NCBI GenBank assembly: GCA_002170735.1
Contig: NHIV01000019.1
Location: 1 to 17,653 of the forward strand
Direction: 5' to 3'
DNA from: a bacterium TMED198
GTDB taxonomy: Bacteria > Fidelibacterota > Marinisomatia > SCGC-AAA003-L08 > D37C17
Length of the DNA stretch: 17,653 nt
Every line of letters starts with the position of its first letter. Positions within the stretch are counted from its first letter, which is position 1. This document shows, in pieces, positions 10,238 to 16,280 of the stretch. Under the pieces are notes generated by a model. The model saw nothing but the letters and a program-made list of their open reading frames with translations, was not told the origin of the DNA and did not search any database. A program made the translations under genes and the position numbers.

Positions 10238-10984
10238 ATGGAGTTTACTGTTTTATTATTGTCTGCATTTGTAACCTCATCTATTTCCGCAGTACTTGGA
10301 ATGGGAGGAGGCATCATACTTCTTGGAATAATGGCAATTATTATACCTGAGGGCTATATGGTTATTGCGCTGCATGGAATGATCCAACTTTTCAGCAATA
10401 CAACAAGGACCTTTATCTATAAAGACAGTCTAAACACAGAAATTCTTAAGCAATTTTTGATTGGCTCCATAATAGGGGCCATAATATCTGGCTCTATAAT
10501 TGCAACAATTGCCAGCTACCTTCAGGTTGAATCCGCGAACCAGATAAAGGTTGAAGCACTTAAACCTTTAATAGGAGTCTTTATTATTTGGTATCTTTTT
10601 ATAAAAAAGAAAGGAGAAAAAAGAAGCAGCTCATTTTTTCTTGTTGGAGGTATAAGTGGAATCAGCTCGATTTTCATAGGTGCAACCGGGCCTTTAATAG
10701 CTCCCTTTTTCTTAAACAAAAATTTTTCAAAAGAGAATATTATTGCAAACAAGGCTGCATGCCAAACCATAACGCACCTAACTAAGATCCCTCTTTTTAT
10801 CTACTTCTTTAACCTAGACTATATAGAAGAGTTCGATGTTCTTATTCCTTTGATAGTAGCTGTTTTTGTGGGAACCAATATGGGCAAGAAGATACTTGGC
10901 TTTATACCAGAGGTACTATTTAAAAAACTATTTCGATTTGTACTTTTCCTTATTGCCCTTAAGCTTATAGCTTACAACATCTAA
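10238..10984 (+). CDS. TauE/SafE family sulfite exporter-type permease
   Basis: 248 residues, mostly hydrophobic with about seven to eight membrane segments, the normal size for the TauE/SafE family (PF01925). The family's first glycine motif is present near residue 21 (GMGGGIILLG), and the second half repeats the pattern with GISGISSIFIGATGPLIAPFF, typical of these internally duplicated permeases. Family members export or import sulfite, sulfoacetate or related organosulfur anions; the substrate here is unknown. It is the only plus-strand gene. ATG 10238 follows a T-run without a Shine-Dalgarno sequence, and an in-frame alternative is not better. Its TAA (10982-10984) overlaps the stop codon of the opposing deiminase-family gene. 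Confidence 0.88.
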   Translation: MEFTVLLLSAFVTSSISAVLGMGGGIILLGIMAIIIPEGYMVIALHGMIQLFSNTTRTFIYKDSLNTEILKQFLIGSIIGAIISGSIIATIASYLQVESANQIKVEALKPLIGVFIIWYLFIKKKGEKRSSSFFLVGGISGISSIFIGATGPLIAPFFLNKNFSKENIIANKAACQTITHLTKIPLFIYFFNLDYIEEFDVLIPLIVAVFVGTNMGKKILGFIPEVLFKKLFRFVLFLIALKLIAYNI

Positions 10985-12822
10985 AGTTCAAGTATAGTAT
11001 TTACAAGCTTTACAACATCTAAAATATCAACAAATCCATCACCATTGATATCGCCTGATTCATTCTCAAGTGAACCAAGAATTATATTAATCAGCAGTAC
11101 CACATCCTGAATATTTATCTCTGTATCTCCGTTGATATCACCAGCTACTGAGCTAGTTGTAGTAAACAGGTGCCAGCCTGCGTTTGGGTGGGATGCACTT
11201 GCATCAAGAGCGTTTGTTGCTGTTAGGTAATACTCAATACCAGAGCTTGGATTTAAAGTTGGAAACATGCACCTGTACGCGCCACCTTCCAGCTCTAAAT
11301 CAATTACTTGAAAGGGACCGTCCTCAGCGCTGTATTTCCAAAACATCGATACAGTTTCTATATTTTCACCGCTGTAATCAAGGACCTCTACCTCAACCAA
11401 AATATTACTATTACTTTCAATTTCTTCGGATCTTATTGATTTATGAGAAAGATGAATCATTTCAGGGTCAAAAACACCCATTGTTCTACAGTGCAGAGCA
11501 TCCTCTCCGTACCAAGGGCTGCCAGTTGCCCCATCGAAGCCAATTATATCGTAACCAGGCATTGCATTCCTGTATGTTTCAAGAGCCTGCTGATCTGCTA
11601 AAATTCCATACTGCGGAACAAGCACCTTGTTGTTTAGAATAAGTGAATTTGTATACGCAGCAACTGGATTGGTCTCCCAAGATCCTCCGTTTATTGACGG
11701 ACAAAAGAGTCTGTGTACCTTGAAGGGCCTTCCATAGAAAGTTGACATGCTGTTAAATGCGCTGGCAAAGTTTTCAATACAGTCATACTCAGGGCTCGAC
11801 TCTGGAACCTGCTTGATTATGACTGTTTCTGGGCCCGTGAGCTTGGCCATGCAATCAATATGTTGAATACTGGAGACGTTTGGGTTATCAAGGATGTGGT
11901 AGGTATCAAGACTTAGATGCTCACTGACATCAAGCAAAAACTGATCTTGGCTCATATTGTTCTCATTTACCATTAGCTCAGTAGAAAATCCCATGCCATA
12001 CCCATCTGTCATAAAGTTTCCTCCTGTCAGAAATAGAGGTAAGTCTTTTATATCCCACCCTAGCTGATTTGCAAAGTCTATATTGGTATCATCGTCCTCT
12101 TCCCATCCCCTCAAGTCAGCTGAAACCGGTCTCCCTTGTTTATTAATTCTATTTGATGAACTATAAGCTTGGTCGCAAAATCCATTATTATCTTGCCCAC
12201 CTTCTCCACAGTCACCACAGTCCCAGCTGTAGTCATCACACATAAAGTCAAGGCCCCAGCTACCATCATCGCAGTAGCCATCTCCAAGCCAGTCCATTAT
12301 AACTCCATCACCGTTGAAGTCTTGACATAATTCATTGTTTATATAGCAGTCATAGCCCTCTTCAATATAGTCAGGCTGATTGTTACAGAACTCCATCCCA
12401 TCACAGTCAACAAGAATCATATTCTCATCACAGTCCTGAGGCTCATCATTGCAACCACCTTCTTCGGGATACCCATCAAACCTCTGGTTTACCACCTCCC
12501 AGTGATCTTGTCCAATTAAAAACTGCGGGCCATGATCGCGAGTCCAATGTGAATAAGTTTGAGTAAAGATAAATGTAACATTTTGCATATCAATGCCCCA
12601 GCTAGTAAAGGAAGACTGGGCCTGGCTTTGCTGGAAGCTGTTCTCAACTAGTACATACAAGACATCATTTCTTGCAAGCTCCACAACTAGGTCTGAAGGT
12701 ATACCAAGCGGCCATCTGACCATAGTTCCAATAGCAGGTTCCCACTCTGCCACAACTCTTTTATCTGGCACACTCCCAACGATGAAAGTTGTAAACAATA
12801 ATATAATAAAACTCTTTCTCAT
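10981..12822 (-). CDS. Secreted peptidylarginine/agmatine deiminase-family enzyme with Cys-rich insert and dockerin-like tail
   Basis: 613 residues: signal peptide (1-17), deiminase domain of PF04371 type, an Ig-like beta region (about 465-555) and two dockerin-like repeats (561-613). The active-site set is intact: Asp96 in TRDHGP, His321 and Asp323 in QHIDC, and nucleophile Cys445 in ALHCRTMG. The substrate-loop motif LTGGNFMTDG (265-274) is present. Catalytic plus Ig-like domains resemble secreted bacterial peptidylarginine deiminase (PPAD) more than cytosolic agmatine deiminase, but substrate cannot be settled by eye. Residues about 124-216 are an acidic Cys-rich insertion absent from ordinary family members. 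ATG 12822 has no clear Shine-Dalgarno sequence. The stop codon overlaps that of the convergent permease gene. Confidence 0.85.
   Translation of the reverse strand: MRKSFIILLFTTFIVGSVPDKRVVAEWEPAIGTMVRWPLGIPSDLVVELARNDVLYVLVENSFQQSQAQSSFTSWGIDMQNVTFIFTQTYSHWTRDHGPQFLIGQDHWEVVNQRFDGYPEEGGCNDEPQDCDENMILVDCDGMEFCNNQPDYIEEGYDCYINNELCQDFNGDGVIMDWLGDGYCDDGSWGLDFMCDDYSWDCGDCGEGGQDNNGFCDQAYSSSNRINKQGRPVSADLRGWEEDDDTNIDFANQLGWDIKDLPLFLTGGNFMTDGYGMGFSTELMVNENNMSQDQFLLDVSEHLSLDTYHILDNPNVSSIQHIDCMAKLTGPETVIIKQVPESSPEYDCIENFASAFNSMSTFYGRPFKVHRLFCPSINGGSWETNPVAAYTNSLILNNKVLVPQYGILADQQALETYRNAMPGYDIIGFDGATGSPWYGEDALHCRTMGVFDPEMIHLSHKSIRSEEIESNSNILVEVEVLDYSGENIETVSMFWKYSAEDGPFQVIDLELEGGAYRCMFPTLNPSSGIEYYLTATNALDASASHPNAGWHLFTTTSSVAGDINGDTEINIQDVVLLINIILGSLENESGDINGDGFVDILDVVKLVNTILEL
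10984..11142 (-). other. Dockerin-like repeat pair at the C-terminus of the deiminase-family protein
   Basis: Residues 561-613 hold two Ca-loop repeats: GDINGDTEINIQDVVLLINI and GDINGDGFVDILDVVKLVNT. Each has the D-x-N-x-D-x5-6-D loop followed by a hydrophobic helix, as in type I dockerins. Confidence 0.8.
12175..12453 (-). other. LNR-like cysteine-rich insertion within the deiminase domain
   Basis: Residues about 124-216 of the deiminase-family protein hold about ten to eleven cysteines and many Asp/Glu. The segment WLGDGYCDDGSWGLDF followed by MCDDYSWDCGDC resembles Lin12/Notch (LNR) repeats, whose hallmark is GDGxCDxxC...C...DGGDC with bound Ca2+. It sits between the FDGYPEEGG segment and the region leading to the substrate loop. 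LNR identity is a pattern-level inference. Confidence 0.6.
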
Positions 12823-13273: not shown

Positions 13274-13578
13274 TCTATCTCCTTGTTTAAATTTTTGTTT
13301 GGTCTTTGTTTATCACTCTTACTAATCTGATTTTTAATATTTTTAATTGCCATGGAAAGTGTTTTTTCAAATGTAGAAGAGTAGCACTTTGTTATATATT
13401 GTTTTTTTCTTGAAGTAATTATAAGCTCAACCTTTTCAGCTCTATCCACTTTTAGAAGTACAACCTTGCTTTGACTAATACTTGAGTCAAATACAAGTAA
13501 CTTCAAAAGTCTGTCCTCTATTAATTTTTTAAGCTCATTTGATGGGGTGAAATGTCTTGCGGTTACACTAATCTTCAA
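13270..13578 (-). CDS. raiA: Short ribosome hibernation factor RaiA/HPF family
   Basis: 102 residues, matching the short RaiA/HPF family, which binds the 30S subunit and inactivates ribosomes in slow growth or stress. The start MKISVTARHFTPSNELKKLIEDRL is the canonical opening strand and helix, and a basic C-terminal tail follows. The long-form dimerisation domain is absent. The start codon is TTG (13578-13576): an in-frame TAA lies only two codons upstream and no ATG is available, so TTG is forced. AGGAG at 13591-13595 is 12 nt away, longer than usual. The gene overlaps the last 11 nt of the serine hydrolase gene and its own stop overlaps the DUF423 start, suggesting translational coupling along one mRNA. 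Confidence 0.9.
   Translation of the reverse strand: MKISVTARHFTPSNELKKLIEDRLLKLLVFDSSISQSKVVLLKVDRAEKVELIITSRKKQYITKCYSSTFEKTLSMAIKNIKNQISKSDKQRPNKNLNKEID
13279..13284 (-). promoter_or_regulatory. Shine-Dalgarno site fixing the TTG start of the DUF423 gene
   Basis: AAGGAG on the minus strand lies 5 nt before TTG 13273, inside the 3' end of raiA. No in-frame ATG exists at this position, so this site decides the start. Confidence 0.75.
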
Positions 13579-15103
13579 TTTTTAAATTTTCTCCTATAAT
13601 AACATTAACAATTATAATTATATCTAGTACATCTAATGCTCCATCTTGGTTTGTATCAGATTCAAGGCTGTAATCATTTTCTAGAACCATGCCAACCAAA
13701 ACTACAACATCTAGAATATCAACGCTTCCATCAAGGTTAATATCTCCAAATAAAGAAAAGTTCATTTGTTCTGCAAAACTAAAAACTGCCCTCTCAATTT
13801 CGATCACAGCGTTGTAGCTACTAGAATTACTAAGAACCACAACCCCCAAATCATCTGAAAAGGAAATAAACATTTCTGTTAAACTTCCTATATCGCCTCC
13901 GTTGTGCCCAAACAGATTTCTACCATCTTCGTTCTTGTAGTACCAAATTAATCCCTGTGTAGAGCTGATAAAGGGATAGTATATTGTCCTTATAGTTTCT
14001 ACAGTTTCACTTTCTAAAATTCTTACACCACCATATATACCATTATTCATAACCGCTGCCATAAACTTAGCCAAGTCCTTGGAAGTAGACCTTAGCTGGC
14101 CAGAGGGAAAGTCTGAGTACCCATAGTGGTCTTGAGCTAAAGGAATAATTCCACTATCTCCTGTTCCGTCCTCTCCGCATACATCGTCATAGTCCGCACA
14201 ACAATCTCCGTAGTACATACAGGCAGAATCGCAGAAACAGGGGTTGCTCTCATCATAAACTCCGCAGCCAATTTCGAAACAAGTAGATCCACTTCCTCCC
14301 TGAAGAACATAAGGCAATGCAACCTGATCGAGGTTATCAATCTCGGATAAAAACCAAGATGAATTTTCCATTCCAAGCGGCTCAAATATTTGTTGTTTAC
14401 AGTACGTACTGAATTCTTGCCCTGAAATTTCCTCAACAAGAAGACCAATCAAAGCAGCACCGATATTGCTGTAGGAGTAGTTGCTTCCTGGGATCCCACT
14501 TGTAAAGTTGGTACTAGCTCCATAGAACTGTCCACCAGGAACTAGATACTGCTCTAGATAGTAACCAAGTTCAAGATCTGAGTCTCCATTGTAGTAGGGC
14601 ATTACACCCCAGTTATCCTTTATCCCTGAAGTATGAGTAAGCAGCATTTTAAATGAAATCGAAGCACTTGGATAATTTGGGTGATTAACCTCAAAGGGAA
14701 GATATGCATCTATATCATCATTAAGTTCAAAGAGTCCCCTTTCATAAAGCTGCATAAGAGCGGTTGCTGTAACAGTCTTTGAAACAGATGAAAGTATGAA
14801 CATAGTATTTTCATCTACTAAAATGTCGCTCCCAATATTCGCGTGTCCAAAATATGCTTCCCATACAATACTTTGATTTTTTGCAACTGATATTGATAAA
14901 CCAGGAACTTGACTTTGCTGTATTATCTCTTCAATAAAGTCCTTAAGCTCTTGCTCTGTTTGGAAATCTTTTGCACTTTCATCTTTATTCGCTTTGAAAA
15001 TACGATCTTTGTTGCTCCTACTGTAAAAAGAGCTATCCCCAAATACTTGGGAAAATAAAAACCCTGAAACAACTATAATCCTGGTTAGAGTATAGATTCT
15101 CAT
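13568..15103 (-). CDS. Secreted beta-lactamase-fold serine hydrolase with somatomedin-B-like insert and dockerin-like tail
   Basis: 511 residues. Signal peptide 1-22 is followed by a class C beta-lactamase/PBP4*-type domain (PF00144). Its three motifs are seen: Ser106-x-x-Lys109 in SSVSK, Tyr211-x-Asn213 in YSYSN, and His400-x-Gly402 in FGHNGG (the HxG variant of KTG). Family members include D-amino-acid peptidases, esterases and PBPs; the substrate is not deducible. Between the second and third motifs lies an eight-Cys somatomedin-B-like module (275-309). Residues 453-505 are two dockerin-like repeats. ATG 15103 follows the stop of the upstream hydrolase gene after one base, so translation is probably coupled. 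Its 3' end overlaps raiA by 11 nt. Confidence 0.88.
   Translation of the reverse strand: MRIYTLTRIIVVSGFLFSQVFGDSSFYSRSNKDRIFKANKDESAKDFQTEQELKDFIEEIIQQSQVPGLSISVAKNQSIVWEAYFGHANIGSDILVDENTMFILSSVSKTVTATALMQLYERGLFELNDDIDAYLPFEVNHPNYPSASISFKMLLTHTSGIKDNWGVMPYYNGDSDLELGYYLEQYLVPGGQFYGASTNFTSGIPGSNYSYSNIGAALIGLLVEEISGQEFSTYCKQQIFEPLGMENSSWFLSEIDNLDQVALPYVLQGGSGSTCFEIGCGVYDESNPCFCDSACMYYGDCCADYDDVCGEDGTGDSGIIPLAQDHYGYSDFPSGQLRSTSKDLAKFMAAVMNNGIYGGVRILESETVETIRTIYYPFISSTQGLIWYYKNEDGRNLFGHNGGDIGSLTEMFISFSDDLGVVVLSNSSSYNAVIEIERAVFSFAEQMNFSLFGDINLDGSVDILDVVVLVGMVLENDYSLESDTNQDGALDVLDIIIIVNVIIGENLKIED
13589..13747 (-). other. Dockerin-like repeat pair at the C-terminus of the serine hydrolase
   Basis: Residues 453-505 hold GDINLDGSVDILDVVVLVGM and SDTNQDGALDVLDIIIIVNV, two Ca-loop plus helix units. 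The first is nearly identical to the first unit of the neighbouring alpha/beta hydrolase (GDINLDGSVNVLDVVTLVG). Confidence 0.8.
14177..14281 (-). other. Somatomedin-B-like eight-cysteine module inside the serine hydrolase
   Basis: Residues 275-309 carry cysteines at 275, 280, 289, 291, 295, 301, 302 and 309. The core C-F-C-DSA-C-MYYGD-CC-ADY-DDV-C fits the somatomedin B signature as I recall it (C-x-C-x3-C-x5-6-CC-x-[DN]-[FY]-x3-C). SMB domains are best known from animal vitronectin and ENPP enzymes, where four disulfides form a compact knot. Confidence 0.8.
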
Positions 15104-15104
15104 A

Positions 15105-16280
15105 TTAATATGTAAGAATGATGTTAACCAACAAAACTACATCCAAAATATTAGAAAGTCCATCCTGGTTTAAGTCTCCAAATGAGTTTTCTAGATCTTG
15201 ATCCAAAACTAAGCCAACAAGGGTTACAACATCTAAAACATTCACACTCCCATCTAGATTAATATCTCCTTCAACTTCATCTGGTGAATCTATAAATTTA
15301 TATAGAAAGGTATAAGCATCTGACTTAATTTGATCAAAGTACTCATTGGGGCCCAAGAACCAATTTCCATTTACTGCTCCCCAGTATTCATGCAACTCAC
15401 CCGGCTCTGCATACAATTCATTTTCAATTCCAACCTGGTCCATTCTCTCATTTATCAACTTTGATCCATGGACAATTGGAAGGGCAATATCAATTGTAAA
15501 AGGGAAGCCAAGCTCAAAAGGAACAATTGGATCTGCTGTTCCATGGAACATAATGGCTGGTATAGTATCACTAGAATCAATCCACTCTAGATTTGCGATT
15601 GCCCCCCAGCAACTGACAATAGCGTTTGGCCTTGGGTCGTGATCATAGCTATTTCCTTCACAAACAAGGCATCCAAGGTCCGGATCTCCTGACCCTCCGT
15701 AGGTTGCCTGGGGTCTATCTTCTTCTCCTAAATAGCTTAGATGAAGCGCTACAAATGCACCTGCACTTGAGCCCCACATAAAAATCTGATCAGGGTTGAT
15801 GCCAAGTTGATCTGAGTGCTCGCGCAGGTAACGTATTGCGGCTGCACCGTCCTGTACAGAACGATAAACAGCCCTCTCTCCGCTGTACGAGCTTAGAACA
15901 TTTAGGCCAAGCCTATAACTAATGCTTACCGCAACGAAGCCCCTTTTTGCCGCTGATATTGACAAATCTACGACATCATCAAGCTCGTTGTTTCCCGAAA
16001 AAAATGCTCCAGTATGAGCAAAAACAATTACAGGCCTGCTGGCAAGAGTATCTCCAGCTGGCTCATATACATCCATCTTAAGATCAATGTCCTGCGTATT
16101 GGATTCTACCCAAAACCAAAAAGGAAGATCTGGAGCGTTACCATAAACAACGTCCTCTGTTTTCTCTACATTAGCAAACACCTCATCAAGATACCTTGTA
16201 CCTTGAGCCGCTACTAGTGAAACTAAAAATATAAATATTGTGACTACTCTTCTCATTGTCTGAAATATATTATAAAACAT
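15105..16280 (-). CDS. Secreted alpha/beta hydrolase (esterase-like) with dockerin-like tail
   Basis: 391 residues from ATG 16280; Met9 (ATG 16256) would give a tighter signal peptide (MRRVVTIFIFLVSLVAAQ) and is an equally likely start, as neither has a Shine-Dalgarno sequence. The catalytic triad can be read: Ser172 in GSSAG, Asp250 in HGTADPIVP and His297 in GELHEYW, with an oxyanion-type HTGAFF at 89-94. Layout matches the esterase/lipase family related to carboxylesterases and BD-FAE-type enzymes; the substrate is unknown. A short insert after the nucleophile helix contains CLVC (204-207). Residues 338-390 are two dockerin-like repeats. It heads a tight group: one base after its stop the serine hydrolase gene begins. 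Confidence 0.87.
   Translation of the reverse strand: MFYNIFQTMRRVVTIFIFLVSLVAAQGTRYLDEVFANVEKTEDVVYGNAPDLPFWFWVESNTQDIDLKMDVYEPAGDTLASRPVIVFAHTGAFFSGNNELDDVVDLSISAAKRGFVAVSISYRLGLNVLSSYSGERAVYRSVQDGAAAIRYLREHSDQLGINPDQIFMWGSSAGAFVALHLSYLGEEDRPQATYGGSGDPDLGCLVCEGNSYDHDPRPNAIVSCWGAIANLEWIDSSDTIPAIMFHGTADPIVPFELGFPFTIDIALPIVHGSKLINERMDQVGIENELYAEPGELHEYWGAVNGNWFLGPNEYFDQIKSDAYTFLYKFIDSPDEVEGDINLDGSVNVLDVVTLVGLVLDQDLENSFGDLNQDGLSNILDVVLLVNIILTY
15108..15269 (-). other. Dockerin-like repeat pair at the C-terminus of the alpha/beta hydrolase
   Basis: Residues 338-391 hold GDINLDGSVNVLDVVTLVGL and GDLNQDGLSNILDVVLLVNI, followed only by ILTY. The DxNxDG loops and LDVV helices match the tails of the other two enzymes. 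Confidence 0.8.

Follow-up and report, generated by a model that had tools for sequence, protein, structure and literature searches.

How does a domain known mainly from animal proteins come to lie within a bacterial enzyme, and what might it do there? The question is raised by contig NHIV01000019.1 (GenBank assembly GCA_002170735.1) of bacterium TMED198, a marine member of the Fidelibacterota; its 17,653 nucleotides were analysed as a whole and are called the window below. At 13568..15103, on the minus strand like every other feature located here, an uninterrupted open reading frame encodes an S12/class-C-type serine hydrolase of 511 amino acids. The domain in question is Somatomedin B (SMB), regarded as an animal extracellular module. 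An earlier note, made from the letters alone, had claimed that an SMB-like module of eight cysteines is inserted into, rather than fused to, the catalytic domain of the hydrolase, close to the rim of its active site. On sequence evidence, we confirm that the hydrolase carries a genuine SMB domain within its catalytic domain.

A Somatomedin B domain within the catalytic domain

The host enzyme matches PF00144 (beta-lactamase) over residues 54-430 (E 5.3e-55), and its motifs are intact. In an alignment with AmpC of E. coli, the SxxK motif S106-K109 (14777..14788) pairs with S64/K67 and the YxN motif Y211-N213 (14465..14473) with Y150/N152. At the HxG motif H400-G402 (13898..13906), which by convention we take to be the equivalent of KTG, G402 falls on G317 of the AmpC KTG and H400 on H314, one residue before K315. 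All six motif residues (S106, K109, Y211, N213, H400 and G402) are invariant across the 123 rows of alignment A2. The three motifs and the fold place the protein in the S12/beta-lactamase-fold family (PF00144). Judged by its profile score and motif, it is not a class C beta-lactamase: it reaches 78.2 of 415 bits with the NCBIfam model bla_class_C, and has HNG near the KTG position.

Between Y211-x-N213 and H400-x-G402 lie the eight cysteines of the module, C275, C280, C289, C291, C295, C301, C302 and C309. The span C275-C309 occupies 14177..14281, exactly as had been noted, and the cysteine spacing is 4-8-1-3-5-0-6, beside 4-9-1-3-5-0-6 in the second SMB domain of autotaxin. A profile search returns PF01033 at residues 274-311 with 29.9 bits (E 6.9e-7; cut-off 23.1), inside the PF00144 match; the module scores 34.5 bits in a scan of the whole genome. 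Residues 268-318 (14150..14302) are, by loop comparison and alignment, approximately the stretch that SMB-free sister proteins lack. Searched alone against PDB sequences, the 51-residue segment matches ENDOU (whole-chain E 4.3e-8, from two stretches at 0.0012 and 0.014) and, again by whole-chain E, autotaxin/ENPP2 (best 4.1e-5), ENPP3 (1.3e-4), ENPP1 (2.3e-4) and vitronectin (0.0068). Profile score, cysteine spacing and homology to solved SMB domains agree, and as far as sequence can tell the insert is a member of PF01033; both the domain call and the claim of insertion rather than fusion stand.

The site of entry was located by comparison with AmpC of E. coli. A profile of the SMB-free proteins aligns with AmpC at E 2e-19 (hhalign), and the insert enters between V211 and S212 of the AmpC omega loop (mafft add). 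This alignment supports a position of the module at the active-site rim, in the place of the omega loop, and so bears out the location that had been proposed for it. An abstract on PDC-3 (PMC12823066) includes residues 211, 214, 219 and 221 in the omega loop, and an excerpt of another (PMC2654509) describes the natural GC1 enzyme, in which three residues inserted after position 210 give a flexible loop and an extended spectrum.

Conservation across the family

A protein-database search gave 1334 homologues at E <= 1e-20 among 7994 candidates scored; the PF01033 count comes from the best 120 of the 1334, each of which represents one 90%-identity cluster. PF01033 is present in 118 of these 120, and the few with an organism name come from Candidatus Marinimicrobia; the same insertion, sought in homologues, is found almost throughout this list. 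The two without a PF01033 call keep the module, P0106 with eight cysteines and P0098 with seven. Conservation was counted over 122 rows (the window, P0002-P0121 and P0123), leaving out the SMB-free L040 and P0001, a 98% duplicate of the window. P0122, in which an SMB fragment is joined to a Wzz/kinase-type protein, was dropped as a likely chimera.

Seven of the cysteines (C275, C280, C289, C295, C301, C302 and C309) occur in all 122 rows and C291 in 121, which makes a chance origin of the pattern unlikely. Ten other sites in or beside the module are likewise invariant in all 122 rows (G272, G279, G281, N287, D292, D300, D304, Y305, G313 and G315). At the non-cysteine SMB sites the majority residue has a mean frequency of 0.77, beside 0.83 and 0.84 in the two catalytic parts, 0.69 in the dockerin-like tail and 0.50 in the first 25 residues; by this measure, conservation at the non-cysteine sites of the module comes close to that of the catalytic part. 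One close gene pair allows the ratio of nonsynonymous to synonymous substitution rates (dN/dS) to be estimated: it is 0.27 in the insert (11 differences), 0.11 in either catalytic part (41 differences over the two) and 0.33 in the dockerin (7 differences). A second gene pair has zero differences within the insert.

SMB-free relatives and a probable single gain

A scan of named genomes found 15 loci of the hydrolase, 14 of them of the SMB form (two, L033 and L036, with masked letters, and two belonging to the same genome); the remaining locus, of candidate division LCP-89, has no module. Twelve of the 14 share their loop sequence with a set of 245 genomes of the phylum, and hence the two sets are not independent. 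Among the 245, 26 match the LCP-89 protein at E <= 1e-40: 13 have the SMB form, 12 are SMB-free and the last ends short of the loop. The 13 span four families of the phylum and have the module at the same site.

Residues 1-455 of the LCP-89 protein also served as a query, and PF01033 is found in none of the best 120 (P0124-P0243) of its 1539 homologues at E <= 1e-30, a list in which SMB forms would rank lower; the sources include WOR-3, Planctomycetota and a Thermoplasmatales archaeon. The loop equivalent to Y265-S334 has 21 residues in 118 of these 120 matches (17 and 23 in the other two), against 70 in the window, and this constancy indicates that changes of length are rare there. Longer loops without SMB are seen in two more distant relatives from the phylum, L048 and L066. 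Another SMB-free S12 relative of the same family, encoded by a reading frame of 508 amino acids (L045, genome G016), has CGVC-type cysteine repeats ahead of its catalytic domain.

Two trees were built from the catalytic part. In the first, the 23 SMB rows among 36 lie on one side of one branch (support 100/99), and in the second, which sampled every third of the 120 listed matches, the 11 SMB rows among 56 stand together (support 100/99). L063, which stops short of the loop, and L034, which duplicates L023, were dropped, and L037, which carries a Flavobacteriales label at a contig end and may be misbinned, was retained in the first tree. In neither tree is an SMB-free row nested among the SMB rows. 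Because the SMB rows group together, they are most simply explained by a single gain, in which the module would have been inserted once, in an ancestor of the family.

Possible role of the insert

Alignments and trees show that an SMB domain entered, most simply once, the omega-loop equivalent of an ancestral S12 hydrolase of the Marinimicrobia (Neomarinimicrobiota) and has been retained since. In the role that we propose, the enzyme would be exported; residues 1-22 (15038..15103), a hydrophobic N-terminus recognized by eye, form a probable signal peptide. A C-terminal dockerin-like module, residues 453-500 (13604..13747), may anchor it on a surface protein that has a cohesin. Under the oxidising conditions outside the cell, the eight cysteines would close into a compact disulfide knot standing up at the edge of the active-site cleft; as a fixed wall or an exosite, this knot would set which extracellular ester or peptide substrates gain entry. 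Of the explanations weighed here we favour this one, and consider the chances of such a role in substrate access, or as an exosite, to be evenly balanced. In its favour are the SMB identity of the insert, the invariant motifs, the retention of the module in one clade beside sisters with short SMB-free loops, its alignment to the omega loop, the dN/dS of 0.27 in one pair, and the DsbA-family, dockerin and cohesin matches of the source genome.

Several observations weigh against this proposal. The rim position derives from the AmpC alignment rather than from measured distances. In the full-length model, ten-residue means of the predicted local distance difference test (pLDDT) are 46-62 over residues 271-320, and the segment modelled alone averages 59.8; models of such low confidence show neither rim packing nor disulfides reliably, and a Foldseek search with the segment model returned only two autotaxin chains at the meaningless E-values of 6.4 and 9.6. 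The dN/dS of the insert exceeds that of the catalytic part (0.27 versus 0.11), as estimated from a single usable pair with 11 differences. The dockerin-like tail scores 16.3 bits with PF00404, below the cut-off of 22.9; PF00404 is assigned in listed homologues such as P0002-P0005. Finally, the DsbA-family match in the source genome has one internal stop codon, and VKOR was not found in this 66%-complete genome.

Other explanations of the insert have to be weighed against a role at the rim. The SMB domain of vitronectin docks PAI-1 and uPAR, and the module of the hydrolase may likewise be a docking site for a secreted or surface protein, with its location in the catalytic domain merely bringing the partner near the active site. 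This is possible but rather doubtful: the source genome has two further SMB proteins of adhesive type (one with cadherin-like repeats, the other with cohesin and LNR-like repeats), and ten non-cysteine sites in or beside the module are identical throughout the 122 rows, but no partner gene travels with the hydrolase in the 15 loci, within at most 6 kb on each side, and the cysteine spacing differs from that of the hydrolase in 6 of the 11 other lineage SMBs compared. Alternatively, the module could be a tolerated passenger or a pure stabiliser, that is, a self-folding knot whose disulfides shield the exported enzyme from proteolysis. The SMB clade, however, holds no SMB-free row, C291 is the sole cysteine that varies (in one of 122 rows), and 118 of the 120 listed SMB-free sister matches have equal loop length. 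On this account we find it unlikely, even though the module sits in a loop, related modules occur inside unrelated hosts, the distant relatives L048 and L066 have a longer SMB-free loop, and the insert is under less constraint than the catalytic part in the one gene pair.

Recent transfer from an animal, or a contaminated assembly, would suit both the animal distribution of the domain and the base composition of the insert, which is 49.0% G+C versus 36.5% in the remaining gene. We do not count the latter as evidence of transfer, because the codons for Cys, Gly and Asp may cause it. Given that 13 genomes from four families of the phylum, and 118 of the database proteins listed, have the same module in the same place, and that the architectures of the lineage's other SMB proteins are bacterial, such an origin is very improbable. 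Two records are doubtful, namely P0122, with its chimera-like kinase fusion, and L037, with its Flavobacteriales label at a contig end.

Gene surroundings and possible tethering

Adjacent to the hydrolase gene, on its upstream side, lies a gene for an alpha/beta hydrolase with a C-terminal dockerin (15105..16280; PF20434, 75.9 bits). This dockerin scores 20.7 bits, or 21.7 bits in a second scan and 24.8 with its neighbours in frame. On the downstream side, a PAD_porph-type deiminase that likewise ends in a dockerin is encoded at 10981..12822 (PF04371, 114.5 bits in two stretches; dockerin, 31.9 bits). At E <= 0.001, the source genome yields 42 matches to dockerin and 4 to cohesin; among the 14 control genomes, dockerin is found in two and cohesin in one. 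One of the cohesins shares an open reading frame with a second SMB of the source genome (L003). A cohesin-dockerin tethering of the hydrolase is plausible.

A conserved operon around the hydrolase was also considered and found no support in the 15 loci, over at most 6 kb on each side. PAD matches above 100 bits occur in three of the loci (L026, L032 and, as a terminal fragment, L031), and the best match to the adjacent alpha/beta hydrolase is at most 39.1 bits. The numerous neighbourhood matches that score between 20 and 54 bits apparently reflect the common dockerin module. Elsewhere in the window, positions 1-5517 (minus strand) hold a very long open reading frame that combines RCC1-like and DUF285 repeats with many repeats of the form DCAGxxGG...CGVC.

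Related modules in the lineage

SMB is found in 14 of the 245 genomes of the phylum, in 13 of them above the cut-off, and in 0 of the 14 control genomes. Two of the other SMB proteins come from the source genome: L002 (contig C79), a frame of 3895 amino acids, has its SMB amid cadherin-like/Big_9 repeats in a giant protein of surface type, and in L003 (contig C26) an SMB occurs together with a cohesin domain and LNR-like repeats. L003 is a possible partner of dockerin-tagged proteins. By eye, SMB and LNR-like modules together separate two apparent halves of an FN3-like domain in L014, L019 and L025, and with less clarity in L011; Pfam gave no confirmation of the split in these four. A homologue of the hydrolase, P0081, has a C-terminal Kunitz/BPTI domain after its dockerin; of the 23 genomes in the family, 3 also have Kunitz matches, and the source genome is not among them.

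A cysteine-rich stretch (residues ~125-229, ~12136-12450) in turn splits the PAD domain of the deiminase, and within this stretch an LNR-like module is seen by eye at residues 159-205 (12208..12348). The PAD homologue in L032 has such a cysteine-rich insert, the one in L026 is without it, and a similar motif is present in L031. The term LNR-like is a by-eye name: PF00066 (Notch/LNR) has no match in the PAD protein of the window at E 0.1, nor at its place in the genome scan. The one Pfam Notch/LNR match of the source genome (25.4 bits, cut-off 21.2) lies in a frame of 2700 amino acids (L076, contig C58).

Tentatively, SMB and LNR-like modules may act as loop cassettes in diverse secreted hosts, such as the S12 omega loop, PAD, FN3-like and cadherin-like domains. 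If true, such cassettes would retool dockerin-tagged extracellular enzymes and scaffolds with the fold unchanged, in enzymes at the active site, and the habit would be an intron-free counterpart of animal domain shuffling. As to the source of the module, the mean non-cysteine identity of the hydrolase SMBs is 30.5% and 34.9% to two lineage SMB groups, set by eye from cysteine spacing, and 25.6% to one autotaxin SMB. These figures do not settle it, and SMB sequences of 35 residues are too short for a tree of module origin.

Comparison with known systems

Both the SMB domain and the S12 fold are known; what is new is their combination, in which an SMB occupies an active-site loop of the hydrolase and has become fixed in a whole bacterial family. 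We found no report of an SMB inside a bacterial hydrolase in the open-licence literature, nor, judging by titles and the openings of abstracts, one on bacterial SMBs, which is weak evidence as most subscription papers fall outside that coverage. Pfam calls for both domains exist on public proteins, so that the pairing is already visible in databases, even if undescribed. In class C beta-lactamases, the loop that here hosts the SMB is known to tune substrate range. With SMB-free sisters on one side and an SMB fixed at this loop on the other, a direct test becomes possible of how a disulfide-rich domain is accepted and how it affects catalysis. Because the SMBs of the lineage stand in several unrelated architectures, they also bear on the origin of small animal-type modules.

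The hydrolase shares its fold and its omega-loop position with the class C beta-lactamase AmpC, but has HNG in place of KTG and remains far under the NCBIfam class C cut-off. Compared with Pab87, the CubicO peptidase of Pyrococcus abyssi (2QMI), the loop is longer: 63 profile positions in the hydrolase face 14 chain residues (217 to 232) in a HMMER match of two pieces, the second of which is weak by itself (i-Evalue 0.26). Pab87 is described in an excerpt of its report (PMC2651629) as an octamer with a C-terminal lipocalin domain, whereas the hydrolase ends in a dockerin-like tail at residues 453-500; with no lipocalin family among its Pfam matches, the hydrolase does not qualify as a CubicO protease of the Pab87 type. 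Among the SMB-free S12 hydrolases, the LCP-89 protein is 41% identical to the hydrolase in the best segment and has the flanking motif GYSDYPSGQLR in common with it, and the listed matches often end in a Por secretion tail (PF18962). The SMB domains of ENDOU, autotaxin/ENPP2, ENPP1/3 and vitronectin have the same CxC..C....CC core as the module of the hydrolase; unlike those of ENDOU, the ENPP proteins and vitronectin, this one sits within a catalytic domain.
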